From Diplonema papillatum (lineage: Eukaryota; Euglenozoa; Diplonemea; Diplonemida; Diplonemidae): a DNA stretch of 64,000 nt. The notes below the pieces were generated by a model that saw only the letters and a list, made by a program, of their open reading frames with translations, had not been told where the DNA came from and made no database searches. Below, piece after piece: positions 2,189 through 53,786 of this stretch (positions are counted from its first letter, which is position 1; every line of letters begins with the position of its first letter). Location: contig JAPJBO010000865.1 of NCBI GenBank assembly GCA_030068145.1, positions 33,287-97,286 of the forward strand, written 5' to 3'. The position numbers and the translations under genes were made by a program.

Positions 2189-5100
2189 TCAGGGCATGAT
2201 GGTGCTGGTGAAGTGCCAAGGGGGGCGGGGGTTGACATGGCTCGGCAGCGCCGTCGGGGCGGAGGTTTGGTTGCGGCGGGCGGCGGTCGTCGGCGGGTGC
2301 TGGCGGACGGCGTCCGCGCTGCTCAGCCGGCGCAGGCCGTCGTTTTCGGCTTCCAGCTTCTTGATGTACTCCTGAAGGACGGCCTTCTCGCGCTCGACTT
2401 GCTGGCACAGGCGCGTGGCCTCCCCGATTTTGGCCCAGTCGACCTGCAGCGCCTTGCACCGGTCCTTCATCTTCTCGTACTTGCCCTCCAGCTTCCGGAT
2501 CTCGGCCCCCACGCTCGGGTCCATGTGCGCCGTGTTGATCACCCTCCGCTTCCGCTTCGCCGCGTCCAACAGGCGGACAGGGTGCGACATCATGATGCCC
2601 CCTGCGTGGATCCGGTCGCTGCACGCGCTGCAGAGACGGGCCCGGCAGAGTGTGCAGCTCACTTCCGCCTTCCTCTGCATGCAGTCCTCGCACGCGGGAC
2701 GCTGCAGAGAATTCTCGATCGGCTCGGGTGCCGCGATGTCCGACGTGTCCTTCGTCGTTCGGAGTCCGGACACCTCGGCGAGCTCCTGCTGTGCCAGCCT
2801 TCGCTCCAAGTCCGTGTTCTTGATCACTGCCGCATCTCGCTCCTTGAAGGCACTCGCGCTTAGGTCTTGCGCTCTGTTGGATTAGGTGGAGTCAACTTCT
2901 CAGGTTCGTGGTTTTTTTATGCTCTCCTATACCGTGGCAACACACGGAAAATGTGCGGTAGTCAAGCCGATGGCGGTTGGTCGACACCCATCACTATTAA
3001 TGTAGCCGATCACCAGACAAAATGCCTGCTGCTGGATCCGGTGTGGAAGGTCGTCTGGACAAGCTTTCCTTGCAACGGGGAAACCTGGCCTCAGGGCACT
3101 GTCTTTTGCTCGCCTGCTTGGTAGCAGGATAGCCCAAGGGCCAGCAGCTGCCAGCACCCCATATACCTACATGTGTGCTACTAGTGTGTCGATTTAGAAA
3201 CAGGTTGGCATACTTGACGACCGTGTCGGCGAGGGAATCGACTTCTTGCTGGAGTTCATCCGCGCGGGATTGCAGGATTTCGAGCTCGTTTTGGCAGCGC
3301 ATCTGCATGCCGCGCATCCTGTCGTTTGCCGCGTCGAGTGCGTCGGTCAGCGACCGCTGCAGCAGGCCTTGCTCCAGCCGTGCCGCCGCTGTCTCCGAGT
3401 CGGCCCTGCATTGGTTCAGCCAATCCGTCAGCTCTTGCGAGCGCAGGTTCGACTGGTACTCGAACATGTGGCCGTCGACGGTTCTGCTCTTGTACACCAA
3501 CTTCGCACCTGAGGTATGGATTGGTACCGTGAAGGGCTTACTAGTCGAGTGAAAAGCGACTTGAACATAAGCTGACAACAGAATTTGAACACTTGACTCA
3601 CGGTATGGCGAGACGTATTGTTTGAGTTCACGCGAGGATGCGATTGTAAGAAAACCCTCAGTCGGACCCGTGCGGTGTGCGTGCAGCTTTCCCGACCAAC
3701 CCGAGGCAGCATCCCATAATAACCCCTCACTCCCTATGCTTGCGTCTGTCACTGCTCCTGCCCTGCTTGCCACGCGCCGGATGGTTGGAGTAAAAGGGGA
3801 AGCCAGAAAGCTGCTAATCTTGCTGCTGACCACATGAAGTGGTGCAAACAAGTTTATTTTCCTACAAAAAAAAACTGTAAGCGGGGCTGGTCGATCGATG
3901 CATACCAAGTGGCAGCAGCAACGCCTTCTCCCTCGGGAACGCCGAAATGGCCTCCAAGTGGCGGCCTTGGCGGACGTTCGTGATGAACACCGACTGCACG
4001 TCGGAGACGATGTGCCGGTCAAGGGAGCAGCTGAGGGGGCCCGCGAGGACGATTTCGTCGCCTTCGCTGACGACGGGCAGCGCCGAGACCTCGTGGCAGA
4101 CCGTGACGCCGGACGCGGCGTCGGCCGTGTGCTGCGTGGCCGCGAGTGCCGTGAGCAGCCCGATGGTCTTCAGGTACGGCCGCACCTCGGTCCACGCCTT
4201 CTCGTCGTCCGGGTCGGACGTCGAGAGGCGGTGCAGCGCGTCTTCGACTTCCTCGTAGATGCTCTTGTTCTGCAGCCCGCCCACTTCGCCCTCCCTCGCA
4301 ATGTACTGCTCCCACGCCCGCGTCGACGCGTAGCTCGGCGCACCCGTGTGCAGGAGGAGGGTGTCCAGGTCAGGCCCCGTCATCGTGTACACCCGCAGCA
4401 GCAGGAAGTCCATCAAGTTGAGCCCCGGGTACCCCGTCGTCGCCAGCCGACTCGACACCGGCACAGGGTTCACGGACAACCCTTCCTGCAGCGCCAGCAC
4501 CGTCCCGCGCACGGTTCTCGCGGTTTCCGTCAGGATCCCGAACACCGACGCGCCGTCGGCCGGCTCCAAGAGCTCCATCAACTCATCGAGCACGTCGCCG
4601 GGCTTGTTCTCCCACTCGAGCTTCAGCCGCTTGATCACCGCTTGCGCGGTGGACGGCTCGTAGAAGACCGTCGGCAGCTTGTTTTTGTCCTCCGAATCGC
4701 TGTCGTCCTGCGGCGCCGCCCTCGCGTCGCGCTTCCGCCCAGTTTCCAGCCGCGGGAGGTTGAACTTCTCCCTGCACACGCCGGAGTAGACGGACGCCGC
4801 AGCGGAGGAGATGGTCGTGAGCTGGAGGTCGGTGAGCGTTGTGGCGTTGTCCTCGGGGGCTATTTCTTCGAAGTGGCCGTCAATCAGCGCCTGGTTCTCG
4901 GCCTGCAGCTTCGCGACCGCATCGCGGAGGCCGTCGATCACGTCGCGAAGCAGGTCCTTCGACCCGGTCAACTCGACGGTGATGAGGTGCTCAGGCGTCG
5001 CCAGCAGTGCCTCGACGGCTGGCGCGGTGCCTTCTTCGTCTTCTTCGCCTTCCCCTTCTTCTCGTGCTTCTCCGTCTGCGTCTTCGTCGGCGGGAGCGTC

Positions 5101-7263
5101 GCTGTCGGCGTCCTGCTTGTCTTTGGAGGGGGGGTTCCGCTTTTCATCGACGGCCGGCGGCAGCTCTGTCTTGCCCAGTTCGAGGTTGAACTTCATGTCG
5201 GCGTAGTCGAGCGCAGTCGCTCGGAGGACGCGGGAGAGGCTGCCTATGTCGGCGAGGATCTCCGCCTTGCGCGCCGCCGTGTCGTGGGTCTCCTGCAGCT
5301 CTGCCAGCTGCAGGGTGATTTCCGCCTTGAGCTGCTCGTTCTCCATCTTCTGCTGCTGGAGGGTGGCCAGGTGCTTGGCCAGGACGGCGTCCTTGTCGGC
5401 GGAGTCGGTGCGGACGGACTCGAGGCTCTCGTTGAGGCCCTTGATCTCGTTGAGCAGCACCCGCATCGTCTCCTCCTGCTTCTCCCGGTCCAGGCGCGCG
5501 GTGACCCACTCGTTCTCGTGCGCTTCACGCAAGTCGACGTTCGCCTTCTCGGCAGCTTGCAACTCCTGTAATGACCGGGTTGGTTTCAAGAACGGAAACG
5601 GAACACAGGTCAAGGCAGGTTTTTTTTGGTCGTCGAAGATCGCCGATCTTCGAAGACTACTACCTGCACACTTGTTCAAGGGGGTTAAACCCCGTCGCTA
5701 TCCCGAAAGCATCGTAACGTCACCCCTCGCTTGCCCACCCACCCTTGCCCTTTTTCTGAAGCCGGACACGGGCAAACACAAGAAAGTGGGGGAGGGGTTG
5801 TAAGTACCTCCCGCCAGGTTTTGCAGTGCACAGAAACAGGGAAAAAGACGCACCGTTTTGAGGTCGCCAATGTCGTCGACCATCTGCCTGCACTCCTGCG
5901 CGCCTTGCTCGATGACGGTCTTGAGCGCTTCCTTCTCGCCGAGGAGGGTTTCTAGCTGCTTGTCTTTGTCGCCAACGAGGCGCTCCATGTGTTCCTGGTA
6001 GGCGGTCAGCTTCTGCCTCGTGTCTTCCTCGCGGTTCTGCAGCTCGTTGGCGGTGACGCGGTAGTGCTCGTTGAGGCGCTCCTTCTCGGCTGCGAACTCG
6101 GCCTGCTGCTGCTGCATCAGGTCCTGCATGCGCTGCGCCTGCTGCTGCTTGTACTGCTCAAACTGGTCGTGCATGGCGACCACGTGCTGCTGCAGGGCGT
6201 GCCGGTGGCCGTCCGAGTTGTGCGTCACCAGCGCCGACTGCTCCTCGAGTTGCCGGTTCTTCGCTTTTTCCGCTTCCAGCAGCCGGCTCAGGTCCTGCAG
6301 GGTCTGCTGCAACACCGACTGCTGCTCTTCATACATGTGCTGCGTCTGCTCGTATGCTGTGGATGTGGGAGACACGGTAGCGAGAGAGGTCAAGAACTTC
6401 GTGAGCGAAGTGATAGAAGGTCTGCACGAACTTATGAATAGAAGGGCATGGAGTGGACCTGTTGACAAGACCAACCAGCAACTCCCCTCCCGTAAAAACT
6501 GTATTGTCTGGGCGGTGATATTTTGCGGGCTCGTGGGGCTGGAGCAATATCGGGGAGCTTACAACTCTTCACAAGCAATGCAGTGTATGTGTGTACCGGG
6601 CATACTGAAGACTACCGAGCAGTAGTGGAATTGTCGATTGGATTGTTCCCCACTAACAGGGAATGCTGGGTTTGGACCGTGGTGAGTCAGGTTGGGTTTA
6701 CCGTACTGATGGAGATGCATTCCGACGACAATACGGGGGAGTACGAGGGGAACTCCCGGTTCGAGTCCCTGGTAGCTACTGTTGTTCGATCGAACGGGGC
6801 CGTGGTTTTGAAGCTCCGGGGATTTCGAGTCTTGTGTTTTGAAAAGGAAGAAAGCCTAGAACGAAAACGGAGAGGATAAACAGGGCACACCGTTTTGCAT
6901 CTGCGCCAAGTCGGACTCGAGGGTCGCATTTTTGTGGCGGAGGCCGTCGCCGGTCGGCGAGTGGGTGGACGCCGGCTCGTGGATCGGGGTCGGGCCCGCG
7001 ATGCTCGCGTGGCGGTGCGGCGCCGGGGGCGGCGGCGTCGACGACGACGGGAACCCGAACGGCGGCTTCCGCTGCTGCTGCGACGGCGGGATCGTCGTCA
7101 CCGGCGGCGGCAGCCGCGGGATGGGCGGGTACGAGAACTTGTCCGACGCCGGGCTGCTGTACGGGCTGCTGTGCTGGCTCGCGTACTGGTCGGGGACCAG
7201 GATCTTCGGCCCGCTGTACAGCTGGTCCACGCCCCCCGCCCGCCCGCTTGGGTAGGCGCTCAT
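2189..7263 (-). CDS. Coiled-coil protein with C-terminal B-box zinc finger, five exons
   Basis: I assemble five minus-strand exons: 7263-6891, 6356-5854, 5565-3906, 3508-about 3167 and about 2871-2189. Lengths sum to 3561 nt, giving 1186 residues and a TGA stop. Donors read G|GTGTGC, G|GTGCGT, G|GTATGC and G|GTATAT; acceptors end CAG or GAG, and phases agree at each join. The last intron is least certain: 3202/2873 also keeps frame but needs a poor GTTTCT donor. Exon 1 is Ser/Pro-rich and low complexity. Exons 2 and 3 are Glu/Gln-rich coiled coil, with an acidic stretch near 5000-5110. Exon 5 has a B-box-like finger (CEDC, CTLC, CSAC, then H-x8-H) followed by more coiled coil. I do not recognise the family. 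A cytoskeletal, centrosomal or ciliary scaffold is a guess from the architecture and the neighbouring LC8. Confidence 0.75.
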
Positions 7264-18315: not shown

Positions 18316-20322
18316 CTACATGTCCGCGTCGTCCATGGCGCCTGCGTCGTTGCCTACTCTGTCGAACGGTGGCATGATGACCTGCTTCCCCTTGGCAAGC
18401 TCTTTGAACACGCCGAAGAGGACTTCGCAGCGGTCGTCCTTGTCGAGGGGACCCGTGGGCCGCCCGCCGGCCACTCGGGCAGCGAGGACTTCGATGGCCA
18501 TTCCGCGGAGCTGTTTGACGCCGGTTCGTTCCTTCCAGACCTTGGCCAGGATGACGACATCCTCGATCTTGGGGTACGCTGCGCGCACGCCGTCGAACCA
18601 CTTCAACTGAGCTCGCAGACTATCGGCGGAGGTGGACCTGCCCGGACACGACACTACAATGTCGACGACCCCGAAGTGAGTGTCGTACTGCAGCAGCGTG
18701 CTGCCGTTGGGACCCCCCACATGACCGACGAGGCGAGCGTGCTTGCGCACGGAGTCCTCCGCTTCCTGGAGCTTCTCTTTGGGAACTTCGACGACGATGT
18801 CGACGTCCGAATCGCTGGTTGCGCACCCTTTCTTGATCGAGCCGCCCAGGAGCACGGTGCACCACATGCCCGCAAGCCACTTTTCGATGCGTTCCTTGAC
18901 GGGTTGGACCTGGATGCTATGGTCCAGGCGCTCACGCTCGCAAAGACTGTTCAGTTGATTGGCCGTCATCCACCCGAGGCAGGCTCTTTCCTGCGGCGGA
19001 CCGTGCTCGGCTGGCTCGGCTGGGCTCGTCGCACTGTCTGTTGTCGACGACGACGGCGGCGGCGGCGGCGGCAGCTCGTTCACAGTCACCAATCGATCCA
19101 CTCTTTCGAAGTACGGTGCGAGCTGCAAGTCTTTGCCTGCCCAGACGGTGTCCACGTCCGCGTACTTTTGAACAACGGATCCGAAGGTCACCGCCGTTTC
19201 CATACGTGTGGACGTGTGGTACAGTAGCGGTGCCTTCTTGCCCTTGGCTATCGGCTGGTCCGGCAGCTTCGTTCCGACAAGGACCAAGCGTCTATCCTTA
19301 GCATCCGAAACGGCAGACGCGAAGCTCCCAGCTGCCTCCGCGGCGTCGTGGTCCACAATTACTTTTCCGGGGCCGGGATTGAGTACCTGGAAGCCAGAAG
19401 GACCCTTCTTCTTTTTCTGACATTGACTCGTGTTCGGTCTGTGCGGCGGCTCGCGATGTTGCTTCTTTGGTGTTGGCGGTACGGGTGCTTCTTTATAAGC
19501 TTTACTGTTGGGGGGTGCACCAAGGCCATGCTGCTTGTAATGCATCGCCGTTGATAATCCGTAGTGTCCATCCTTCCCCCACACGTTGGAGGCGGGCAGG
19601 TTATCGTAAATAACCTTCGGATACAGGGTTTCGCAGACATTGCGCAGAATCGGCACCAGCTTCTGGTTCCAAACATCGCTGCTGACCTTGTGTTCACGGC
19701 CGTAGTCGATCATGTCCTCCTGCGGGAAGTTGTAGTCGAAGGTGAACGGAGCGAAACCCTCGACGCGACGACCGTTGATGAACACGCACCCCCTGCCTGG
19801 AATTCGCGCACGGTAAACTTCCAACTGAGCCGTCCGGAGGACAAGATCTTTCTGTTTCCGAACTCGGTCGAACTGCAGGAACCAACTCTTAAGCTCGTCC
19901 ACAACCGCGGCTGAGAGTATCGGCGACTGGATTTCCCACCGGGTCCCCGTCTGATTTTTCCCCGGTACGACCTCCGTCTTGAGCCAGATTTCCTCGGTTC
20001 CTCGGATCGGGAACGTGAACTTTGCCCAGTAGGCCCGAGCCGAGAAACTGGCCCCCAACCGCCGCAGGATTGCGACGCTGTCGAGCAATCCGATCCCGAA
20101 TGTGCCGATGGTGCCTTCCCTGCCGCTGGTTTGGCCGACCTGGAAGTCGGAGTCCCTAACGCCGTCGCCTCCGTCCTCGATTATCAACGTCTCGCTGCTC
20201 CAAGTCACCACTGGTTCCTTGCCGCCGTTAGCGTCAATGGAATTAGCGACCAGCTCCAGCAGCGCGAACTTGATCGTCTTGTTCTTGCAGTGGTCTACGG
20301 TCAAGTTTAGAGAGCGTTCCAT
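18316..20322 (-). CDS. GHKL (Hsp90/MORC-type) ATPase fused to OAS/cGAS-like nucleotidyltransferase
   Basis: Single-exon protein of 668 residues, ATG at 20320-20322, TAG stop. The N-terminal half is a GHKL ATPase: N-box E23-x3-N27-x2-D30-A31 (LLELVANSIDA), G1 box D50-x-G52-x-G54 (IIEDGGDG), and G2 box GTFGIGL at 73-79. A proline-rich linker (about residues 255-440, with a run of seven Pro) leads to a DNA-polymerase-beta-fold nucleotidyltransferase: G494-S495, D506-x-D508 in SDSDVDIVVEV, and third carboxylate D554 in VVDIVVSCP. The helical region after it, with YPKIEDVVILAKVWKE and a later VIMPPFDRVGN, resembles the oligoadenylate synthetase C-terminal domain. All catalytic residues of both domains are present. 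OAS/cGAS enzymes make 2'-5'-linked or cyclic nucleotide messengers from NTPs on sensing nucleic acid; GHKL/MORC ATPases dimerise on ATP. A sensor-synthase role is inference. A tRNA- or poly(A)-type NTase is the main alternative. Confidence 0.85.
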   Translation of the reverse strand: MERSLNLTVDHCKNKTIKFALLELVANSIDANGGKEPVVTWSSETLIIEDGGDGVRDSDFQVGQTSGREGTIGTFGIGLLDSVAILRRLGASFSARAYWAKFTFPIRGTEEIWLKTEVVPGKNQTGTRWEIQSPILSAAVVDELKSWFLQFDRVRKQKDLVLRTAQLEVYRARIPGRGCVFINGRRVEGFAPFTFDYNFPQEDMIDYGREHKVSSDVWNQKLVPILRNVCETLYPKVIYDNLPASNVWGKDGHYGLSTAMHYKQHGLGAPPNSKAYKEAPVPPTPKKQHREPPHRPNTSQCQKKKKGPSGFQVLNPGPGKVIVDHDAAEAAGSFASAVSDAKDRRLVLVGTKLPDQPIAKGKKAPLLYHTSTRMETAVTFGSVVQKYADVDTVWAGKDLQLAPYFERVDRLVTVNELPPPPPPSSSTTDSATSPAEPAEHGPPQERACLGWMTANQLNSLCERERLDHSIQVQPVKERIEKWLAGMWCTVLLGGSIKKGCATSDSDVDIVVEVPKEKLQEAEDSVRKHARLVGHVGGPNGSTLLQYDTHFGVVDIVVSCPGRSTSADSLRAQLKWFDGVRAAYPKIEDVVILAKVWKERTGVKQLRGMAIEVLAARVAGGRPTGPLDKDDRCEVLFGVFKELAKGKQVIMPPFDRVGNDAGAMDDADM

Positions 20323-22654: not shown

Positions 22655-25116
22655 TTAAATGAGCAACCGCGTAAAGATGGAGGTGAGGACGCCCATCAGC
22701 AAGGTCAGCGGTGCCCCATATTTGGTGTAATCTAAAAACTTGTACCCACCGGGCTTCATGACCATGAGGTTCGTTTGGTACCCAAACGGTGTCATGAACG
22801 AGCACGATGCACCGATAAGCAGCGTAATGACGAAGCGTTTCAGTGATGTGCCTTCCAAGTCGACGATCTCCTTAACGATGGGGTACAGCAGGATAACAGT
22901 AGCTTGGTTGCTGACGATGCAAGACATGCTCGCGCAGGCGAGGAAGATGAGCAGCAGCACACCAACGGATCCAGCGAAGTCGCCCATGAAGTAGAGCTCC
23001 TTAGCGACCGAAATGAACCCATCGGCTATCAACTTGGTCACGTTCGTCTTCTTCAACGCACTGCCCACGCCGAAGGCGAAGACGATGGCAAGGAGAATCC
23101 GCAGCCGCACCGCATTGAACGCGTCAGCCGGCGTCAAGCAGTGGGTGAACACCATCAAAATAGACGCCCCGACGGCGGCGTCGAAGATGTGCAGAGCGCC
23201 ACTGGCAACGGAGCCCACCATTGCGCAGAGGATGATACCAGCTATGTACTTACGCACGGAGTCCTTCCTCTTCTCGAACCGCGGCGGTTCACTGTCTGGA
23301 ACCGGGGCCACCGACAGGAAATCGGCAGATGTCCGGTGCGTCTCGAAGAAGTCGGTGTAAGCCTCGATAAGCACACGATCCGCCCCCTTCAAAGGCTGCT
23401 CCCGCAGGACACTGAGCAGCGGAGGTGGTGATTTAGCCTTCTGTTCTTCGCTGTTGGAATTCAAGCTGAAGTCCTGCGAGGCTTCAACCGTGTTGCCCAC
23501 AGGTGATTCGTCCGTGTTGGTGGTTGCGATGTCCCCGTCGGTGATAGCCAACGGGTTGCAGAGGGGCGGTTCGCTGCAGGCGTTTTCGGGAACCAACGTG
23601 AACAGAGCCGCGTTGTAAGTCTTTAAGAAGTCAGCCTTGTTCACAGGGACGCCGACCAGCGGGTTGGAGTCAGCGAGGACGGCTTCGAACAAGCGCCTCT
23701 TCCTCCTCCCGAGGCCGAGCAACGCGTATTGCGGGGCTAGCGGCGGCAGGAGCCCGCCGGCGATTTCGATCCTCCGCCGCAATTCCAAGAAGGCAGGCAC
23801 CGTCGCCAGCAGGACCGCGACGTCGCCGGCCTCCAACTGCCGCTGCCCCGCGCTTTCGACGCTTTCGACGCTGTCGGGGCAGCCGCCCGTGAGGACGTGG
23901 AGGAGCGTGGCGCCCTTGGTAGACGTGAGGCCGAGGTTGCTGAGCGTCTCCCCCGCGAGGGGCGCCGTAATCAGCACCTGGATCGCGTACTGCTTCAACG
24001 GCGCTTCGGCGGCTCCTTCCGAGTTCGCCTTATCCTCGGCTGCCTTCCCCGAGCGGTTCGGCAGCAGGTACGGCCCGGCAAGGATTAGGTACAAGCACGA
24101 CAGCAGCGCCGCCGGCGCAGCTGCAGGCGTCATCGAAAAGAACCCAAGGTCGAACGGCGGGTTCACCTCGTCCTCCACCAAACCTTGCAGCACCAAGTTC
24201 GTCGAAGACCCTGCGGCTTGCTTTGAGTTAAAGAGTTCTGTTTTCCATCGTTTATGGTGGTTTAGAGGTTCGGTGTTTTGGGATCTCCGGTTGACCATGG
24301 CTTTCCGTTAGAATTGGATCGAGAGGAACGCTCTATGTCGCAATCCCCACGCAAACGATTCTGGTGTGTTGTGTCACGATTGTCATGTTCAAAGCGGGTA
24401 AGGAGTGACGACTTCGGGGAAGCAACGGGGGTATACATACCAATCATTGTGCATGTCCCACCGAGCAAAGCAGCGAACGAAAGCGGCATGAAGAGCTTTT
24501 CGAGCGGGATGCCTGTTTCACGCGACCATTTCTCTGCTATGGGCATCATGATCATCACGACAGGTGTGTCGTTCAGGAACCCGGATACCGCTGTCACCGG
24601 CAATGTCAGACGGAAGAGAGCCTCGCGCACGGATTTCGGCTTTCCGAGGAGGTGTTTGACCACAAATTGGACCGTCCCCGCTTTCTCAATACCTTTCGCT
24701 ACCACAAACAGGGGCCCAGGGGCAAGCGCACTCGTCGATGCAAACCCAGCCCAAGCTTCTGACCGCGTGACGACGCCTGCCAACAACAACACAAGCGTCG
24801 ACACGACCAACGCCGACTCGGGCGCCACACCATTTACCATGCTCGTGAGCGACATCAGTGTGGTCCAAATGGAGAACCACGACTCCCACGACAGGGCCTC
24901 GGTCCGATCAAATCCAACACGGCAGGCAGAGCACACAATGCACACAATCGACACTGCGCTGACCCAAGCGACGGTGAGCTTGTACCGTAGCATCCCGCGG
25001 AGCAACCGTTGGAAGTATGTCTCCTGAGGTTGGACACGCGATGTTTCAGACGATTCTTCCATGCTCACCCGGATCTCATTTCTGCTGGCAACTCGCACCT
25101 CGATTGGCTCCGGCAT
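22655..25116 (-). CDS. SLC13/SAC1-type sodium-coupled anion (sulfate/dicarboxylate) transporter, two exons
   Basis: Exon 1 is 25116-24441 and exon 2 is 24210-22655, joined across a 230-bp GT-AG intron (donor G|GTATGT, acceptor GCCGCAG|GG). The join restores the family signature GGTCTMIGGSSTNLVLQG, which confirms the splice. The protein has 743 residues and a TAA stop. N-terminal membrane segments carry SGFLNDTPVVMIMMP; the C-terminal half carries the matching repeat signature FMTPFGYQTNLMVMKPGG. Between them is a hydrophilic region with segments like LAGETLSNLGL and LEAGDVAVLL that resembles the regulatory TrkA-C (RCK_C) domains found inside SAC1/SLT-type plant and algal members. The protein should be an integral membrane Na+-coupled importer of sulfate, arsenate-like or dicarboxylate anions; the sequence does not tell which. 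The ATG at 25114-25116 opens a short cytosolic N-terminus. Confidence 0.9.
24211..24440 (-). other. Intron of the SLC13-type transporter gene
   Basis: A 230-bp GT-AG intron, minus strand, placed by restoring the conserved GGTCT-x-IG-x-STN signature on splicing. Donor GTATGTATAC at 24440, acceptor AAGCCGCAG at 24211. Confidence 0.9.
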
Positions 25117-25880
25117 CTTTTCTTTACGGGACGGTAACTTTGCTCTCGAGATAGAACTTTGAGGTGTCGTATGAGAGGGAGTGACGCGAGGTATTTGTTA
25201 ACATCCTCCAAGTTGCAGCTGCGTTATAATGCGTATAAGTCGATCTTTGAGTGCGTGAGCCCTCCGAAGAAAGATCCATCACACTAGCTGCGCTATAATG
25301 CGGAAATTAAAGCAAACGGATGCGACCGAGGCGTTTCAATCGATGTTGGTTGGCATTGGAGCTAGAAAAAGGCTGTGGCGCCAGGTGCGGTGGCAGTTTG
25401 AACGAATGCAGTAAAGGCGACGCCTCGTTGACTGCACTGCAATTTCGTAACAGGAAGACTCCGAAGAGCTGCACAAAAGTTAACCGGATCAGCGGCATCG
25501 CGCCCGGGGTTTCTTGTGCTGTTCCATCTTGCAAGAACTCGGGAAAGCTTACAAAAAGTACGACGGGCGCTGCAGGGTGATGTAGTCGAACTGCGGCGAT
25601 GTCTCTCTGAAGACTAGGAACTCGTGGTTTAGCTGTGTGGGTGGGTGTGCATTAGGCAACATCCGATTGATTATTTGTGGTATCAGGTAAACGAGTCTAA
25701 ACATCACGAAGGCTGAGAATTCAGCTGCCGATAACTTTCTAAGAGAGGGAAAAACTTGGAACTCTCCTTGCAGGGTGGAGTGGTCCCCCCCGGTTTGCAA
25801 AGATTTTTTGGGGGTGCTGGGGACAGACGTTTTGTCAACACATTTTCTCGACGGTTCGATGACCGCTTCCCTGTCCTGGA
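25117..25880. other. Upstream region of the SLC13-type gene
   Basis: Promoter/5' UTR side of the transporter gene, then unassigned sequence up to the left arm of the large inverted repeat. A short motif GCTGCGTTATAATGCG / GCTGCGCTATAATGCG occurs twice (about 25220 and 25288). No gene seen. Confidence 0.4.
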
Positions 25881-36003: not shown

Positions 36004-38489
36004 GGTTTCAATTCAATTTCAATTTCAAAAATTTGGAAACCGCACCCGGGTTAGGCTTGGGGATACGGTGCTAAGGTTCCTTGTGCCTCCTCTTCATCCT
36101 TGGGGCGTTTGTTTGTTTTCTGTTTTCTTTGGTTCGTTCTTGGTATGGTTGTGGGGGGGTTCAGTGGGATTGTTTCTTGCCCGCCCTCCCCTTGTTTCTT
36201 GCCGCTGTTTTGGTAATGATGTCCTGGCGTGCCAGGCTTTACCAGTAGCGGTCGGTGTGTTTCGAGCGATTGCCGTGCTGTCAGTTCCCTGTGATAGTAA
36301 TTTGTCAAGAGGATTGCTTTGGTTCGCTGCTGATATGCTGCTTGGCTCTGCGTGTTGTGTGCAGTGATGGTTGTTTTTCCTTGGTTTTGTTGTGGCTTCG
36401 TCCTTCGCTCGCCCTCCCTTTCCGGTGCGGTGATCTGACGTCTTTTGGTAACCCTGGCGTGCCAGGTTTGCCTGTTGAGTCGGTCTTCCGTGTCGGTCGG
36501 GGGGGGTTTGCTTTCGCTTCGGGACTTTCCTGTTGTTGTCGGGCGCGTGGCGCTGTTTCGCTGCCGCTGCCCGTCCTGCTGCCTTCGCTCTTGTGGGTTG
36601 TTGTTGAGCGTGGTGCGTGTAGCACTGAAACGGGGGGTTAATACGTTGTCTGTTGTTTTGGCAGGACTCGGCTTCTCTTGCGTGCTTGGGGGGGGGGCGT
36701 TGTTATTGGTTCTGGTTTTGTGGGACAAGGTAAGGGAAAGGTATTTCTTTTTCGGCAGTTGGTGGGGGGTATTTTTTGGACTTGTTGTGCGGCTCTCCCT
36801 TCCGGGCGGTGTTCTGACTTCTGTTGGTAAACCCTGGCGTGCCAGGGTTTGCCTGTTGAGTCGGTCCTCCGCTTCGGTCGGGGGGGGCTGGTTTGGTTGC
36901 TGCTTGTCTCTGTTTCGCTTTGCGGCGCTGTTGCGTGGTGCGGTCCGTTGGGCGCTTCGCCTGCCTCTACTTTGTTCTTCCTTCCGGGGCCTTTGAGCTT
37001 GCTGCTTGTCTCTGTTTCGCTTTGCGGCGCTGTTGCGTGGTGCGGTCCGTTGGCCTGGTCGCTTCCGGCAGCGTCAGAAACACCGGGCTGGTGTTTCTGA
37101 CGCTGTTCTATCCCGTGCTCATTGTCCGCTCTCGGCCCGGAGGGTTGTCTTTTTTTGTTTTGGTTGCTAATGCACTGTTCTTGTGTTGCAGCTACCTATC
37201 TGCCTCAGTGACCGCTCCAGTGCTCACTCCACCCTTTTGGACCTTCCTATGGTCAGGTGGGTGTGCTGTCGGTGCACCGAGTCTACCCTTCGTTGGTAGT
37301 CGTGTTCGGTCGCGGCGCTGTTGCGCTGCTGCGGTGGTACTTTTGTTTGCCTTCTTTTTTTCCCCTCTCTTTTCTTATTGTTCTCAGGTGCTGTTCGGTC
37401 CGGTGACCGGCTGCGTCCGTGTCGGCGTGCGGGCTTCGGCTGTTCGTCGGCGCCTGCGTCTCCGTTGTCGTGCTGCCGGTTTACTGCTGCCGCCTTGCGG
37501 CGGTTGGTCGGTGGCCGTGGGGACTGTGTAGTGCCGGGTGTGTGCGTCTGGTGTTGGACTGCGCCGTCAGCGTACTGATTCGCGCTTCGCACTCAGCAGC
37601 CCTGTTGCGCCTGCACCGGCGGTCGGGTGAGGTTGCTTTGCACGGATGTGCCGGGTGTGTTGCCGCCTCAGTCTTCCGACCCGGCCCGAACTATGCCCAT
37701 CCTTCGGCATCCTCGGAGCTTGATCCCTCGAGGTCGAAGGTGTTGTCGACGCCATTGGTTGCTGCTGCCGCCATGTTGCCGTCGAGTTCCGGTGTGCCGG
37801 GCTCAGGTGGGTCTTCGTAGACCTCGTACTTCGGCACAAGCCCCACGGCCTGAAGGTACGCGAGGGCTGCTTCAGGGAGCTCGAAGAGCAGCGGCCAAAG
37901 CAGCTTGTGCCTTTCCCTGGGTGTCGGCTTTTCCCTTGGTGTGTCCGGGATGGCCTTGTGGACCCGTCTCCACATGGTCGCTCTCTCGTCGCCCCCGATT
38001 CTGCATTCCAGGAAAAGGTGTGTTAGGGGGCAGATCGGCGTGGCGTTGCAAAGCTGGCATGGGCGGGTTGCTTGCCTCTCTTCTGCTGCGAGATCCATCC
38101 AGTCGTCCCGGTAGCAGTTCCTGAGGAGTTGGTGGTGTCCCGTGCGAAGCTGGCGGATCTCGCGCTCGGCTCGCCTCGTCAGGTGTGCCGTTTTTGGGAC
38201 CTTCCGTCCTCGGACCAACTGCGTGTACGGCAGCGGCCCGCCCGGTTGGTACGGGGATTCCCGCATTGAAGCCGCGTGTAGTGCCTCCCAGGCGTGCTCG
38301 CGGTACCGGGCCTTCGCGGTTCCTACCGTCATCGGCGGCTGCGTTTCTTCTCCGGTCTGCGAGACGCCCTGCTTCGCTAGCCCGTCCGCCTCTTCGTTCC
38401 CTGCTAGTCCGCAGTGGCCGTAGACGAACTGGAGTACTGGTGTATACCCCTTCGCTACTAGTTTCTCGAGCGCCTGCCAGATTCGGACG
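36004..38489 (-). mobile_element. 5'-truncated LINE, copy 1 (RNase H/zinc-knuckle C-terminus plus long 3' UTR)
   Basis: Nearly identical in structure to the copy at 38490-41076, which abuts it head to tail. It starts abruptly in RNase H coding sequence at 38489, ends its ORF at 37691, then has a 1.7-kb 3' UTR ending in GAAATTGAAATTGAATTG-type tail at 36004. The 3' UTR has three CCTGGCGTGCCAGG palindromes and an internal 55-bp duplication (36895-36951 and 36999-37052) that copy 2 lacks. Confidence 0.9.
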
Positions 38490-39300
38490 TTTCAATTCAA
38501 TTTCAACATTTGGAAACCGCACCCGGGTTAGGCTTGGGGATACGGTGCTAAGGTTCCTTGTGCCTCCTCTTCATCCTTGGGGCGTTTGTTTGTTTTCTGT
38601 TTTCTTTGGTTCGTTCTTTGTTCTTGGTATGGTTGTTGGGGGGTTCAGTGGGATTGTTTCTTGCCCGCCCTCCCCTTGTTCTTGGCCGCTCTTCTGGTAA
38701 TGATGTCCTGGCGTGCCAGGCTTTACCAGTCGCGGTCGGTGTGTTTCCGGCGATTGTCGTGCAGTCAGTTGCCTGTGTTAATAGTTTGTCAAAAGGATTG
38801 CTTTGGTTCGCTGCTGATCTGCTGCTTGGCTCTGCGTGTTGTGTGCAGTGATGGTTTTTTTCCTTGGTTTTGTTGTGGCTTCGTCCTTCGCTCGCCCTCC
38901 CGTTCCGGTGCGGTGTTCTGACGTCTTTTGGTAACCCTGGCGTGCCAGGTTTGCCTGTTGAGTCGGTCTTCCGTGTCGGTCGGGGGGGGTTTGCTTTCGC
39001 TTTGGCTTGCGGGTCTTTCCTGTTGTTGTCGGGCGCGTGGCGCTGTTTCGCTGCCGCTGCCCGTCCTGCTGCCTTCGCTCGTGTGGGTTGTTGTTGAGCG
39101 TGGTGCGTGTAGCACTGAAACGGGGGCTTCTCTTGCGTGCATGGGGGGGGGGGCGTTGTTATTGGTGCTGGTTTTGTGGGACGGTAAGGGAAAGGTATTT
39201 CTTTTTCGGCAGTTGGTGGGGGGAATTTCTTGGTTTTGTTGTGCGGCTCTCCCTTTCCGGGCGGTGTTCTGACTTCTGTTGGTAAACCCTGGCGTGCCAG
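36225..39300. repeat. Recurring perfect palindrome CCTGGCGTGCCAGG in LINE 3' UTRs
   Basis: Present three times in each tandem copy (near 36226, 36452, 36834 and 38707, 38937, 39287), and twice in the truncated plus-strand copy (near 47251 and 47481). The spacing is the same in each copy. Confidence 0.9.
37691..38487 (-). pseudogene. LINE ORF2 C-terminus: RNase H end and HHCC-type zinc knuckle (copy 1)
   Basis: Truncated at its 5' end. The open frame begins VRIWQALEKLVAKG and includes the RNase H motif YGHCGLAGNEEADGLA, then the conserved ARRAEREIRQLRTGHHQLL segment and a Cys/His knuckle (CQLCNATPICPLTHLFLEC). It ends SSSEDAEGWA with a TAG stop. The family belongs with the ORF2 at 58146-62705. 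The reverse transcriptase and endonuclease portions are absent, so this is a dead fragment. Confidence 0.9.
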
Positions 39301-41076
39301 GGTTTGCCTGTTGAGTCGGTCCTCCGCTTCGGTCGGGGGGGGCTGGTTTGGTGGCGCTATGCGTGTCGTCTGTCTACCTCTCGCTGTGACTTTTGTTTGC
39401 GGGGGCTGGGCGCTTCGCCTGCCTCTACTTTGTGCTTCCTTCCGGGGCCTTTGAGCTTGCTGCTTGTCTCTGTTTCGCTTTGCGGCGCTGTTGCGTGGTG
39501 CGGTCCGTTGGCCTGGTCGCTTCCGGCAGCGTCAGAAACACCGGGCTGGTGTTTCCGACGCTGTTCTATCCCGTGCTCATTGTCCGCTCTCGGCCCGGAG
39601 GGTTGTCTTTTTTGTTTTGGTTGCTAATGCACTGTTCTTGTGTTGCAGCTACCTATCTGCCTCAGTGACCGCTCCAGTGCTCACTCCACCCTTTTGGACC
39701 TTCCTATGGTCAGGTGGGTGTGCTGTCGGTGCACCGAGTCTACCCTTCGTTGGTAGTCGTGTTCGGTCGCGGCGCTGTTGCGCTGCTGCGGTGGTACTTT
39801 TGTTTGCCTTCTTTTTTCCCCTCTCTTTTCTTATTGTTCTCAGGTGCTGTTCGGTCCGGTGACCGGCTGCGTCCGTGTCGGCGTGCGGGCTTCGGCTGTT
39901 CGTCGGCGCCTGCGTCTCCGTTGTCGTGCTGCCGGTTTACTGCTGCCGCCTTGCGGCGGTTGGTCGGTGGCCGTGGGGACTGTGTAGTGCCGGGTGTGTG
40001 CGTCTGGTGTTGGACTGCGCCGTCAGCGTACTGATTCGCGCTTCGCACTTAGCTGCCCTGTTGCGCCTGCACCGGCGGTCGGGTGAGGTTGCTTTGCACG
40101 GAGGTGCCGGGTGTGTTGCCGCCTCTGTCTTCCGACCCGGCCCGAACTATGCCCATCCTTCGGCATCCTCGGAGCTTGATCCCTCGAGGTCAAAGGTGTT
40201 GTCGACGCCATTGGTTGCTGCTGCCGCCATGTTGCCGTCGAGTTCCGGTGTGTCGGGCTCAGGTGGGTCTTCGTAGACCTCGTACTTCGGCACAAGCCCC
40301 ACGGCCTGAAGGTACGCGAGGGCTGCTTCAGGGAGCTCGAAGAGCAGCGGCCAAAGCAGCTTGTGCCTTTCCCTGGGTGTCGGCTTTTCCCTTGGTGTGT
40401 CCGGGATGGCTTTGTGGACCCGTCTCCACATGGTCGCTCTCTCGTCGCCCCCGATTCTGCATTCCAGGAAAAGGTGTGTTAGGGGGCAGATCGGCGTGGC
40501 GTCGCAAAGCTGGCATGGGCGGGTTGCTTGCCTCTCTTCTGCTGCGAGATCCATCCAGTCGTCCCGGTAGCAGTTCCTGAGGAGTTGGTGGTGTCCCGTG
40601 CGAAGCTGGCGGATCTCGCGCTCGGCTCGCCTCGTCAGGTGTGCCGTTTTTGGGACCTTCCGTCCTCGGACCAACTGCGTGTACGGCAGCGGCCCGCCCG
40701 GTTGGTACGGGGATTCCCGCATTGAAGCCGCGTGTAGTGCCTCCCAGGCGTGCTCGCGGTACCGGGCCTTCGCGGTTCCTACCGTCATCGGCGGCTGCGT
40801 TTCTTCTCCGGTCTGCGAGACGCCCTGCTTCGCTAGCCCGTCCGCCTCTTCGTTCCCTGCTAGTCCGCAGTGGCCGTAGACGAATTGGAGTACTGGTGTA
40901 TACCCCTTCGCAACCAGTTTCTCGAGCGCCTGCCAGATTCGGACGTTGTCCCGTTCTTGCTGTTTGTGCGGACCTTGGGACAGCACGTTCAGAAGGGAGC
41001 TGGAGTCGCTGAGCACCCAGATGTGTCTGCTGGTAGGCTCTCCTTCGAGTACCTCCCTCTTTCCCAGTTTCATCGG
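38490..41076 (-). mobile_element. 5'-truncated LINE, copy 2
   Basis: Same family as copy 1. It starts at 41076 next to an A-run and the 16-nt tag, runs through RNase H and zinc-knuckle coding (40147-41076) and a 1.65-kb 3' UTR with three CCTGGCGTGCCAGG palindromes, and ends with TTGAAATTGAATTGAAA directly on the truncated start of copy 1. Confidence 0.9.
40147..41076 (-). pseudogene. LINE ORF2 C-terminus: RNase H and zinc knuckle (copy 2)
   Basis: Open frame of about 310 codons ending in TAG at 40147. RNase H residues visible are the Asp of WVLSDSSSLLN and the final Asp of GNEEADGLAKQG with YGHCGL before it. The first Asp and Glu motifs lie upstream of the truncation. The conserved RAEREIRQLRTGHHQLLRN and CQLCDATPICPLTHLFLEC follow. 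An ATG at 41071-41073 happens to be in frame, so a 308-residue protein is possible, but the enzyme is incomplete. Confidence 0.9.
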
Positions 41077-41108
41077 TTTTTTTTTTTTTTTTGAGTAAGC
41101 AACTACGG
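41077..41108 (-). other. A-run plus 16-nt tag CCGTAGTTGCTTACTC at truncated LINE boundary
   Basis: On the minus strand CCGTAGTTGCTTACTC is followed by 16 A and then the truncated LINE. The identical tag plus A-run precedes the unrelated LINE fragment at 43999. Upstream flanks differ from the first C onward. Confidence 0.85.
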
Positions 41109-41590
41109 GCCAAAATTCGCTTTTAGCGCCTGCTCAGTTGGAATTCTTATCGGAAAGTGCGAGATCGTCATTTACTCGTTTCCAGTGTCCCAGGACGGTA
41201 TTTCTGCTCTCTCAGAGCTTATTTCGCCCGGTTTGCGAAGAACTCAAATTGAGTCCAAAAATTCTCACTCGGTAGTGAACAAAAAGAATTTTCGCCGTTT
41301 TTTTAGCCCATGGTCCAGAGGTTACCACACCCACACAGGGGTTTGTGGGTCGGTGGTTCGATTCCCGCCGGAAATCGTTTTTTTGGGTTTTTGAAACAGC
41401 CCCAAAACCGACCTTTTGCCCATCTGCACGCCAGATTTTGGTCGCCACGCGAGCTGATTGCTTGCCCATAATCGCCAGGGATAGCTCTTTCCATCCCAAA
41501 AAAAATTTCCCAAAAATTCCAAAATTTTGACCCAAAACGGGCTGCTTTTCAGACGGAAAATCTGTGACACTTTTTCGTGGAATGGGTGTT
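41109..41590 (+). mobile_element. Solo arm of the 30-bp-TIR element (S2 arm)
   Basis: Inverted copy of 44541-45020. It contains a tRNA-like module at about 41293-41360 (A-box-like TGGTCCAGAGG, perfect B-box GGTTCGATTCC) and ends with the TIR CTGTGACACTTTTTCGTGGA at about 41563-41590. Confidence 0.85.
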
Positions 41591-49108: not shown

Positions 49109-51493
49109 TTACAACTGGTCAGGTTGCTTCAATTTTAACTGGAGAATGGGGAACACTGGTAAGTCCCGCGACATCTGTAGGAAGAGTAGGAGTCCTATAC
49201 AATTCTTAGCTGTGAACACATGGGGCAGGAGCGTGGGGTATGGGAATCTAAGGCAGTCGTGTCTAAAGTGGTCAAGAGATGGACACTGGAGAGTAATATG
49301 TTCAAGCATGGGCTTGCTTGTGTTCTGGTGGCAGTGCCAACACAGCCCTTGGAGTAGATCATAACTTCGATCATCGTTCCGAAGAAAGTGCTTATTTAAG
49401 GGTGTGTGGCCAGTGCGCAAGGCAAAGAGATGAATCTCAGCTTGTCTGGACAGTGCCTTTGGCAGTTTGCTGGGTAGCAGGCCTCGAGTCGCAACAAAGT
49501 GGAAGTTTTTAGGGCGGTCTTGGAGCCAACGACTGGAAAGCGATTCAACAATTCGCGCTTTCGCAGACTGCATATCGAGGCACGTGTAGGCATCGTTAGT
49601 TTTTGAGCGAGCCTTATTTGCAACGATATCTGCTTGCTCGTTTCCCCAGACGCCACAATGTGCAGGTACGTGTTTTAAGGTGATGTTTTCTGGAGTGCAA
49701 GTTCTAGTTCTGGTTTCTGCGATGGTATCGCATAAGGTCAGGAGGATGGCAATGGCAATCTCATCATTTTGCCTGAGGCCCTTTTCGAGGGTCCTGAGCG
49801 CCGATTGACAGTCTGAGAGAAGGAGTGCTCTTGATCCAAGCATCAGAGGCAAAAAGAATTTAATGGCATGTACACCAACAAGAATCGCAATTAGCTCAGC
49901 GCGGTAGATGGTAGCGAATCTACCGCCGCTCGTCATCAGGTGCAGGGAATTTTTGGACACGCGTTTCAGATATATCCGCAGACCCAAGAGACGTCGTGGA
50001 AAGTTGCGCAAAGCTTCGTCGGTGATGTCTTTGCGCGCTACGACGAGACACGCAGAACCAGTGTTCGGTTCGTTGGGCGCTTTCGACGCATCGGTGAACA
50101 CGTCAATGTCCCGATCAGGTAACGAACCGAGGGAGAGCTCGAACATTTCCCGTTTTCGTACCGCACTTGTGTGTGTGCCAACGCCGGGGCACTTGGGGAC
50201 GAAGTGGATTGAGGGCGGGAGCTCAAGTGAAGAACATGGAGTTGGAGGTAGGAGGTTTTGTGGGCGGACTTTCAGAAGTCCAGTCGTTGCAAGATCTTCA
50301 TACGCAGCATGTGACCATGTAGTCAGGACCGGTCGAAATTTAACACAAATGTCATAGCCACGTGTATGCGGAAGGCGTCTTATCCGTTCATACAAGGTGC
50401 ACGACAGCTTCGACCGGTAGGTTTCGAGTGGAAGAACGTCAGCTTCGAGGCAGAGGGAGTGTAATGTCGTTGATGTTGGGAGCCCTGTGATGATGCGCAA
50501 GGCACGATGGTGATCGGTCTTCATCGACTGGAAATCCTGCTGTAGCAAGCACGGGCCAAACACGCCAATACCATAGAGGAAGACAGGGAGAACGTACGCA
50601 AGGTAGAGCGATCTGAGTGGTCCCGATTGAGCCGTGGTGATAGCATCCGCGATGCGTTTCATGTTGGACAGTCTTGCGTTGAAGCGCAACCGGATGCTCG
50701 AGACATGATCGGAGAACGACAGGCTCGAATCGAAGATGACTCCTAGGAAGCGGGCAGATCTAACGTTTGGGAGCAGCGGGGCGGAAGTAAGGTGAACGTT
50801 TTGAAAGGCGTAGAGTGGATCCCGAATAGTGGTGTGATTGGCTACTTCAATACCATTGCACTGGAGAATACGGTGGCCGTCAATTGCAGTGAGGTGCGGG
50901 TCGTTGAACTGTTTCGCCTTGTCCGAGAGTCGAAATGTGCAAGTCGCAGCGTCAATGAGATCAGAAGGATGCAGACTGAGATCACCAAATACCTGCAATG
51001 AGAGTCGAGAGTTGACAGTGGACGACGGGAAGTGGACGGCGATGTTCGTAATGGGATCAGACGGAAGTACCGGGAAGTAGATGACGTGTGTCTTGCTGAC
51101 TGACATGTTCATCTGAAATTCTTGTGCCCACTCATCAACAGCAGCTGTGACCTTCTGAGCAAGTGTCTGCAATTCCTCGTCAGTAAAGGCACTGCACACA
51201 ATCGCAAGATCATCCGCGAACAGTGTGAAGATCAGTCCGGGCATGAGTGCTTCGAGTTTCGCCGCCAGCGGGTCGATGTAGCACAAGAAGAGGGTTGGAG
51301 CAAGTACCGTTCCCTGTGGGACACCTTTGACAATGTTGAAGTACTTTCCAAGTACCCCATTAACCTTGGCTGCCGCCCGCCGACGATGCAGGAAATGCAG
51401 AATCCAGCGTTTCAAGCGTCCCGAGACAGATTTTGCACCAAGCTGGTTGCCCAGTATGGTTTTATCCACCTTGTCGAAGGCCTTGGATATGTG
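49109..51493 (-). pseudogene. LINE ORF2 fragment: reverse transcriptase, RNase H, zinc knuckle
   Basis: Long open frame, 5'-truncated at about 51493 inside the RT palm (SKAFDKVDKTILGNQLG). It then shows GVPQGTVLAPTLFLCYIDPL, the catalytic FADDLAIV, and thumb. RNase H follows with DIDVFTDASK, YRAELIAILVGV, LLLSDCQSALRTLEKG and GNEQADIVANKA, all four acidic residues in place, then CWHCHQNTSKPMLEHITLQC, an HHCC-type knuckle. It ends with a stop at 49109. The endonuclease and RT fingers are absent. It is a different family from the 36-41 kb copies. The fragment at 63681-64000 is a relative. It meets another LINE head to head at about 51.5 kb. Confidence 0.9.
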
Positions 51494-51509
51494 TGTACTA
51501 CAGCCGCCG

Positions 51510-52901
51510 CCTCCACAGCCCGGTTCTCAAGCAGAACGCAACATATGGCCATGGTCCATGAAATGCGTAGACACCTGGACCTGGGGCGGAGCTGCAGCCT
51601 TGATTGAGTGCGCGCCCACGATCTCCCTTGCAAACGACCATGGCTTCGAGATCCGCCAGCGAGACGCCGTCCGTTCGACCACCCTCTCACACGCCGCAGG
51701 ACGCTTTCCCTCCAGCCTCAAGGCGGAGACGCTCGCATTGGCCGCGGCCCTCAGGGCCCTCCTTAGGCTCCTCACGCCCACCACCGCGCCCCGAACGGTC
51801 TTACTGCTGTCAGACTCGCAGTCGCTATTGCAACGTTTGGCGAGCGGCCCACAGACGCAGAAGCAACCCCTCATGGTACACATCTGGACCATGCTCCGTA
51901 CCCTCACACGGTTAGGATACACAGCAACGCTCCAGTTTGTGTACGGACACTGTGGCCTGCGCGGAAACGAGGTGACCGACGGACTGGCGAGGCACGCCAC
52001 TCTCCAACACCACAGAGAGCTGTCGCGGTGCCGGGGTAACCCCACAAGGGAGTGTCCGATCGCGGCGGAGGATGCGGTGGCGCGCTACAAGGCGTACCTG
52101 TCCGCCGTGTCCACCGAGGCCATGGCGCGAGCGGCGTTTGAAAGGGCGACCAAACACCGCATCACACTGCCCTACGCCCGGATCGTGGATGGGCGGAACA
52201 TCAAGCGCCCAGCTCACCTCACGACGCGCGCTGAGCGGGTGATCCGGCAGTTCAGGACTGGTCACCACCCGCTAGTGATGACCATGTACGCCCCGGACTA
52301 CGCCGATCTCGACAAGCAGGAAAGGCGGCGTGCCTATCGCAGCTGTGCACTGTGCGGCAAGCACCGCCCGAACGTGCTCGAACACCTGCTCGTTGAATGC
52401 GACGATGCGGCTAGCCAGCCACACCGCAGGAGCATGTGGTCGAAGGCTCTGGTCGGCAAGGGGCCCGAGGCCGCGTCACGCCTACCGCCCGGAGCTACCA
52501 ATGCCGACAAGCTGTGGCACGTCCTTTTCAAGTTTCCCGAGCTCGCCCTCGAGTACTTGCAGGATGCGGGTTTAATCCCTCGGTTCGTTAACGTGAGACC
52601 AGATTGTGGGGAGGCGCTGACCCCTTCCGGCTCAATCTGTGACGGAAGGTCTGTGTGGAGCTCACAGACTGTCACCTCGCAGATTAGTGCCCCACAGAGC
52701 ACTCCGGCTAGCAGTCAGCCGGTAAGCCTCAGCCGTGAACCAGTGGACTCGGAAGCCAGCGAGCCATACCGCAATTTGCACGACGACGGCCCGCCTCTCC
52801 GCACCAGCAGGTCTCCCACGCCCGACTTGGAGTCGGTGGCGGCTGGTGGGATCTGCTACACAGACGCCATCAGCAGTGACGACTCTAACGACTGGGCCTG
52901 A
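51510..52901 (+). pseudogene. LINE ORF2 C-terminus: RNase H and zinc knuckle
   Basis: Open frame ending in TGA at 52899-52901; recognisable homology starts at about 51558 (MKCVDTWTWGGAAAL). RNase H motifs: SSLKAETLALAAALR (Glu), VLLLSDSQSLLQRL (Asp), YGHCGLRGNEVTDGLA (Asp). Next come RAERVIRQFRTGHHPLVMTMY and CALCGKHRPNVLEHLLVEC. It ends SSDDSNDWA, matching SSSEDAEGWA at the end of the 36-41 kb copies, where the stop is TAG; this shows TGA is used as a stop here. The RT and endonuclease are missing. The 3' UTR runs to a poly(A) at about 53564-53580. Confidence 0.9.
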
Positions 52902-53580
52902 CGACGCCGCATCGTTCAACTCCACTGTTATCGAACCCAACGACACCACGCAACGTGCTGCTTCAAGACGTCAACGTAACATCACCTACAACCCACGGCC
53001 TTCAAGAAGTGCTGCCAGACAACGCCGATGAACTTGCAGCTGTCGTGTGCGTGTCCTTGAGCTTCCACATTGTCGCCTCGGCCAAAGCCAGCGTGTGCAC
53101 AAACAAACGCCGTCGAACTCAGCTCTGCTAAAAACGACTGTTGTATTTGCTACCAAGCACCGCAAACCGCTGCGCCTCCAAAGGCAGCAAGAATATAAAC
53201 TGAAGCACAAACTACAAATGCACCGACAACAGCAAAAGTGTTCCATAAAAGTGTTCCATAAACTGTGCACTGGCTACCAAGGCACCACCAACTGTTGCAC
53301 CTACATCAAACAAAAAACATACAAGACAAACCCAGAGAGTTCGGGTACAGCACGAAGCGACCCACTGTAACCCTGGGTAAGCGTTAAAAAGTTACGCAAT
53401 GAAACAAGAGACAAGGAAATCACCCCACCCTAGCCTAGCAAGCAACCTAGCCCCCAACAAACTAGCCTGTGCCTTGTGCAGCACACAGTGTCTAACCTGC
53501 GTGGCATGTTACTTGACAGTAACACGGCCCAGTAAAGCCGTTTCCCGCCGTGTCGGGTGTCAACAAAAAAAAAAAAAAAA
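52902..53580 (+). other. LINE 3' UTR with poly(A) end
   Basis: About 660 bp following the plus-strand LINE fragment, A- and C-rich, ending in 16-17 A at 53564-53580. No other gene is visible. Confidence 0.65.
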
Positions 53581-53786
53581 TGTGGATACTTTATTGGTGG
53601 CTTACCGTGGTCACCCATAAACCTCCCTCGGGTTTGTGAGGAAAGCGGTACCGGTCTCCCCGGTGAAAGAAGTCCCCAACAAAGGAAACACACCAAACAC
53701 ACCAAAGACGCGTGAACGGAAGGTCTCCTCGCAGGACGCTGCAGAGAGAGACAGAACGAAAGCCGCGCCCGACCATCGGCGGAAAA

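Follow-up and report, generated by a model that had tools for sequence, protein, structure and literature searches.

A diplonemid gene joins a prokaryote/phage-type GHKL ATPase domain to a nucleotidyltransferase that resembles bacterial CD-NTases

Within the 64,000-nucleotide stretch of the Diplonema papillatum genome analysed here (the window), we found a single reading frame of 668 codons that starts with ATG, runs without interruption and joins a GHKL ATPase domain to a nucleotidyltransferase (NTase) (Table 1). The frame is present exactly as the original prediction, made from the letters of the window, had described it. Comparison of gene copies indicates that the GHKL-NTase fusion is real and is kept in two complete copies in the host genome. 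We tentatively propose, with a probability of roughly 0.4, that the gene encodes a three-part diplonemid nuclear enzyme in which a prokaryote/phage-type GHKL ATPase, a basic linker, an alpha/beta domain and a CD-NTase-like NTase would together carry out ATP-gated synthesis of a signal.

Table 1. Features of the GHKL-NTase gene, in window positions
Feature	Positions	Strand	Basis and remarks
Complete ORF, 668 aa + stop	18316..20322	-	GHKL, transducer-like region, linker, middle domain, linker, NTase; paralogue 42% identical over residues 3-655
GHKL ATPase domain, residues 1 to ~145	19888..20322	-	phrog_6077, HATPase_c_3, tblastn match
GHKL N box ELVANSID, residues 23-30	20233..20256	-	Motif match; E, N, D in 40/40 listed prokaryotic ORFs (by construction)
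GHKL G1 box DGGDG, residues 50-54	20161..20175	-	D50, G52, G54 in 40/40 listed prokaryotic ORFs
GHKL G2 box GTFGIG, residues 73-78	20089..20106	-	G73, G76, G78 in 40/40 listed prokaryotic ORFs, F75 in 38/40
Transducer-like region, residues ~146-250	19573..19887	-	NGRRV and DYNF...GRE motifs; pLDDT 24-36 in blocks 151-250
Pro/Lys-rich linker, residues ~251-318	19369..19572	-	Low coding score; pLDDT 27-44
Middle alpha/beta domain, residues ~319-405	19108..19368	-	Common to all three diplonemid copies
NTase palm domain, residues ~451-562	18637..18972	-	NTP_transf_2; PADLOC Cyclase PDLC00803
NTase GS...DxD motif, residues 494-508	18799..18843	-	Also in paralogue, absent in third copy
Third catalytic aspartate D554	18661..18663	-	Conserved in paralogue (h[DE]hh at 550)
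C-terminal helical region, residues ~563-652	18367..18636	-	Predicted helices; weak PDLC00774 match

An open frame of this length would arise by chance with a probability of about 2e-11, a rough mononucleotide estimate that ignores codon structure. The in-frame codon score was above zero in 12 of the 14 fifty-codon blocks, and the gene's own frame ranked first among the six in ten of them (the exceptions were the blocks starting at 251, 301, 401 and 651); because one of the four stretches used for training (3900-5560) was read in the wrong frame, these scores are merely indicative. The score fell to zero or below in blocks 251-350, which include the Pro/Lys-rich linker, and this dip could be taken to mean that two adjacent genes were misread as one frame. 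We regard such a misreading as very improbable and dismissed it, because a paralogue elsewhere in the genome has the same uninterrupted order through the linker and the middle domain.

That paralogue came from a search of the host genome (271 Mb, 2910 contigs, with the window on contig C865) using the protein of the window, hereafter the target, in which three further places matched at E<=0.001. The full paralogue, at C64:248858-250810, is free of stops over 688 aa; its parts follow the order of the target, and its GHKL and NTase motif sets are both intact. In a protein-guided alignment of 637 codons, the two genes agreed at 54.5, 64.2 and 38.3% of first, second and third codon positions, the pattern expected of a conserved protein. 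Identity between them is uneven, standing at 80% in residues 51-75 and at 20-28% in the linkers, including residues 251-325. A third copy, on C652, is 429 aa long and combines the middle domain with a region resembling the NTase, without the GHKL half. Its GS and DxD residues are lost, and it gave no PADLOC or NTP_transf_2 match, a Pfam methyltransferase model being the sole hit (E 0.084, under cut-off). Catalysis is therefore not kept in every member of the family, and this NTase-dead shorter paralogue could possibly act as a regulator. More distant family members may exist in the genome.

Remnants of the family were also seen. Immediately upstream of the full paralogue, C64:247506-247823 (L014 1501-1818) carries a piece of GHKL sequence that contains two TGA codons; it is 44% identical to target residues 18-127 and looks like a decayed tandem copy. 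By eye, partial copies of the third member's start and end (L013 599-1021 and 2332-3021; C652) flank its intact 429-aa frame, an arrangement reminiscent of the 'repeat-bounded' gene structures that passages of PMC10161547 report from D. papillatum. Together with the lost motif of the third copy and the retrotransposon-like frames seen by eye in the window, such remnants would suit a repeat-associated family of drifting copies, in which the intact motifs of the target are a relic and the protein is without current enzyme function. We consider this improbable, as two copies at 42% identity retain all catalytic residues in the two active sites, and third codon positions are where they diverge most.

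At its C-terminus, the target is without about 20 residues of a tail present in both paralogues (19 gap columns in the three-copy alignment). By eye, the three downstream frames examined showed no continuation, which leaves room for a distant 3' exon or for a truncation. At the other end, the GHKL domain comes first in target and paralogue alike, and by eye no clear organelle presequence precedes it, so that the cytosol or the nucleus is the likely workplace of these proteins.

The GHKL half groups, by similarity, with prokaryotic and phage proteins. Its N, G1 and G2 boxes are intact where they had been predicted, and the catalytic E/N, D-x-G-x-G and G-x-G of the superfamily are found in both target and paralogue. 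The region that follows is called transducer-like by virtue of its position. The PHROGs family phrog_6077, of unknown function, matched residues 5-202 at E 2.1e-9 and was alone in being reported at E<=10, with no named rIIA family appearing from a collection that presumably includes them; from T4 rIIA-type phage proteins the diplonemid protein differs in being a host gene product with a C-terminal NTase. Pfam HATPase_c_3 scored 20.2 bits on the target, under its cut-off of 25. An NCBIfam model of the sacsin N-terminal ATP-binding-like domain touched residues 21-79 at 19.3 bits, far under its cut-off of 50, and no sacsin layout was seen.

By tblastn, the GHKL part matched a protein encoded on an Alkaliphilus plasmid (E 5e-5), and a genome scan recovered relatives at E<=1e-3 in at least 41 bacterial or archaeal loci. 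An ORF covers the match in 40 of the 41 loci listed (L039 has none under table 11). Residues E23, N27, D30, D50, G52, G54, G73, G76, G78 and G184 are invariant in all 40 of these ORFs, T127, Y197 and R209 each recur in 39, with F75 found in 38 and A20 in 35, and target and paralogue agree with them at every one of these sites; this agreement is partly by construction, since the N box was part of the pattern used for the scan and the target itself served to confirm the candidates. The likeness to these phrog_6077-type proteins thus takes in the GHKL catalytic residues and extends to G184, Y197 and R209, and the difference lies in what follows. An HExxH motif is present in 31 of the 40 listed ORFs, mostly near the C-terminus; the diplonemid proteins, in whose full sequences we saw no HExxH by eye, have the middle domain and the NTase instead. 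Among 1135 ORFs of at least 80 codons from the listed prokaryotic GHKL loci, phmmer found no relatives of the NTase at E<=1, and an NTase motif picked up in L047 by a loose regular expression was put down to chance, given that no NTase relative turned up in that locus by phmmer. The prokaryotic relatives therefore carry the same clamp with a different C-terminal part. The Alkaliphilus plasmid protein (L001 3921-7235) is 1104 aa long and contains, by eye, three GHKL repeats; its C-terminal HEEVHH stretch has the look of a metallopeptidase motif.

Viral contigs scanned with the single protein gave no match, and a scan with the GHKL alignment A2 found four relatives among 401 viral stretches, three of them, as read by eye, with HExxH at the end (L008 is without it). 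One viral-contig protein (L010 3350-5368) has an N-terminal part of TerD-like appearance, followed by GHKL and then HExxH. Phage matches of the GHKL part by tblastn (11 records, E 0.1 to 8) were too weak to be used alone. From the similarities we infer that the GHKL half is of prokaryotic or phage origin. The earlier description had drawn a parallel with GHKL/MORC ATPases; a MORC4 chain surfaced just as a weak PDB match (E 0.0042) of the mixed profile A1, in which MutL and HtpG chains score higher, and the likeness to MORC ATPases is one of GHKL fold class. We have corrected the placement accordingly to the best matches, namely a phage family and bacterial, archaeal and phage proteins.

Between the two catalytic halves lies a third, middle domain that the earlier layout had missed. 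Residues V323-D324, G350, P354, R373, G396 and D398 are invariant across the three copies, and the structure model is at its most confident here, with pLDDT 73-78 in blocks 321-350. A likeness of this domain to PIN/NYN proteins goes no further than a similarity seen by eye, and we make no claim of it. No Pfam family matches the target's middle-domain piece; that of the paralogue touched EryCIII-like_C at E 0.1, under cut-off. The AlphaFold2 model, built from three sequences, is otherwise poor, with a mean pLDDT of 47.4 and a pTM of 0.29, and pLDDT is 39-42 at residues 491-510, around the GS...DxD motif. Residues 469-643 are modelled as helix, strand, strand, helix, three strands and four helices, with helices predicted at low confidence at 566-582, 586-600, 607-619 and 628-643. 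This order would suit a polymerase-beta-type palm with a helical bundle, an arrangement common to CD-NTases and poly(A) polymerases.

In the NTase half, the predicted triad of GS-x10-D-x-D (GS at 494-495, then D506 and D508) and D554 is intact. CD-NTases carry G[GS]x9-13[DE]h[DE] and a third h[DE]h, usually 50-90 residues apart; the target has this form, with a spacing of 46 between D508 and D554 that falls a little under the usual range. The best PADLOC model was the CBASS 'Cyclase' PDLC00803, at 29.2 bits (E 1.7e-7) for the NTase half of the target and 27.6 bits (E 5.3e-7) for that of the paralogue, and at E 3.2e-6 and 1e-5 for the respective full proteins. Pfam NTP_transf_2 scored 26.9 bits on the target's NTase half, above its cut-off of 21, and 25.6 bits on the full paralogue. 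The second Pfam match, the MTPAP-like central palm, reached 22.9 bits in the target and 15.8 in the paralogue, both under the cut-off of 27. Because the PADLOC models represent defence proteins and Pfam differs from them in content, this ranking, with its small margins and its scores of just 23-29 bits, is not head to head, and it therefore favours a CD-NTase-like enzyme without proving it.

Pfam gave no match to OAS1_C at E<=1 in the target or at E<=5 in the paralogues, and none to Mab-21, SMODS or the PAP-associated domain in any of them. From the wider class first suggested, OAS/cGAS/CD-NTase, the CD-NTase part thus receives moderate support, and OAS or cGAS specifically does not. The C-terminal region had been called OAS-like; its helical character is partly supported by the four helices predicted at low confidence and by a weak match of the Cyclase model PDLC00774 to residues 571-617 (E 0.009 for the whole protein, 0.0015 for the half alone), and the OAS label is not. 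In the helical region of the paralogue, another Cyclase model, PDLC00786, appeared weakly at E 0.017 with no single stretch passing. The closest relationship of the NTase half is hence supported, not proven, to be with bacterial CD-NTases. With these (the CBASS cyclases) and with eukaryotic OAS, cGLR and eSMODS proteins it shares GS-x10-D-x-D, the third aspartate and a helical C-terminal region, and it differs from all of them in its N-terminal GHKL fusion and in having no OAS1_C, Mab-21 or SMODS match. According to passages of PMC10732462, 8 of the 12 supergroups of eukaryotes have OAS-like homologues, and CD-NTases have reportedly passed from bacteria to eukaryotes more than once.

Other searches with the NTase returned little. 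Neither the whole protein nor the NTase half had a match in the PDB by sequence. Profile A6, made from the three copies, matched just two iodotyrosine deiodinase sequences (E 1.2), which we dismissed as chance, and tblastn with the NTase part gave one phage record (E 9) and three plasmid records (E 0.4 to 6) that were likewise set aside. Nothing useful came from a Streptomyces NTase neighbourhood (H21). Among 5.8 billion protein sequences at E<=10, the whole protein, residues 1-275 and residues 455-660 each found the window's own protein alone, in a word-based search that misses distant relatives and that, for the whole-protein query, scored the 7999 candidates sharing most words.

The same palm domain superfamily includes the mitochondrial poly(A) polymerase/TUTase group, and the NTase half could instead be an RNA-tailing enzyme, a TUTase or non-canonical poly(A) polymerase for which the GHKL domain loads or processes RNA, making the whole an RNA-maturation factor. 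This reading, which we judge unlikely while taking it seriously, draws on the MTPAP-like second match and on the paralogue's C-terminal PPHDN...W..IA..A stretch, a type that suits poly(A) polymerases as well as OAS. RNA editing in diplonemid and kinetoplastid mitochondria involves uridine insertion. The extensive trans-splicing and RNA editing of these mitochondria, noted in PMC6334171, would give such an enzyme a setting. Against this stand the MTPAP-like scores, which lie below both their cut-off and the Cyclase scores, as well as the missing PAP-associated match and the lack, by eye, of any clear mitochondrial presequence ahead of the GHKL domain. On these comparisons a signal synthase is favoured over an RNA-tailing enzyme, not proven.

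The NTase might also modify a protein or a small molecule in the manner of MNT or aminoglycoside NTases, with the GHKL domain as a chaperone-like partner. Weak NCBIfam matches over GS..DxD (MntA at 17 bits against a cut-off of 60, ANT(9) at 12.4 bits against 340) and PADLOC PDC-S09 models matching the same segment point in this direction, yet every match is far under cut-off and limited to the motif segment. Moreover, MNT proteins are small, and the GHKL-NTase protein has a C-terminal helical region of about 90 residues. We think this second alternative rather improbable.

For the favoured reading, a signal synthase, the following sequence of events can be envisaged. Once a target is bound, possibly foreign nucleic acid or else a protein, ATP binding would cause the GHKL clamp to close or dimerise around it, and closure would reposition or pair the NTase halves and so switch on nucleotide transfer, the product probably being a short or cyclic oligonucleotide signal. 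Both this product and an antiviral function are suggestions drawn from the protein's sequence. A eukaryotic sensor-synthase derived from two prokaryotic conflict modules, in which GHKL closure on an invader target would lead the CD-NTase to make a second messenger, is a possibility that we put forward with considerable doubt; to our knowledge, its architecture would be unlike those of OAS, cGAS or CBASS. If the NTase does make a signal, a eukaryote would have a nucleotide-signalling receptor with a GHKL ATPase as its gate. The gene would then be a case in which eukaryotes rebuilt conflict parts of prokaryotes or phages as a new protein, and would offer a concrete, expressible protein for probing target sensing by GHKL clamps. 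Should the NTase tail RNA instead, ATP gating would make it an unusual enzyme of that kind. We found no description of a GHKL-NTase fusion in the listed titles and abstract openings of the literature searched, which did not take in subscription papers or most preprints, nor in the passages seen of PMC7824862, PMC12839542, PMC10732462, PMC12424679 and PMC10161547.

Several features of the surrounding DNA were also recorded. A CitMHS-type transporter at 22655-25197 of the window is spread over two frames, with Pfam CitMHS matching in both, which suggests a spliceosomal intron in that gene. About 41% of D. papillatum genes have introns, according to passages of PMC10161547. An astacin-family metallopeptidase domain (Pfam Astacin, E 4.3e-22) lies at 53667-55200, in a frame that continues, by eye, into retrotransposon-looking sequence. 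Frames with the look of non-LTR retrotransposons were seen by eye at 36051-41133 and 49109-62705, with two similar units at 36-41 kb. Across the genome, a spliced-leader pattern matched 204 + 178 places (382), and its reversed control 0 + 0, which marks the host as a euglenozoan and very probably as a diplonemid. Copies of this exon are distributed over many contigs and are in part clustered, with, for example, five on C372 and four on C728 among the matches listed. One copy reads ACCAACGATTTAAAAGCTACAGTTTCTGTACTTTATTG, then GT, which we take to agree with the Diplonema spliced leader.
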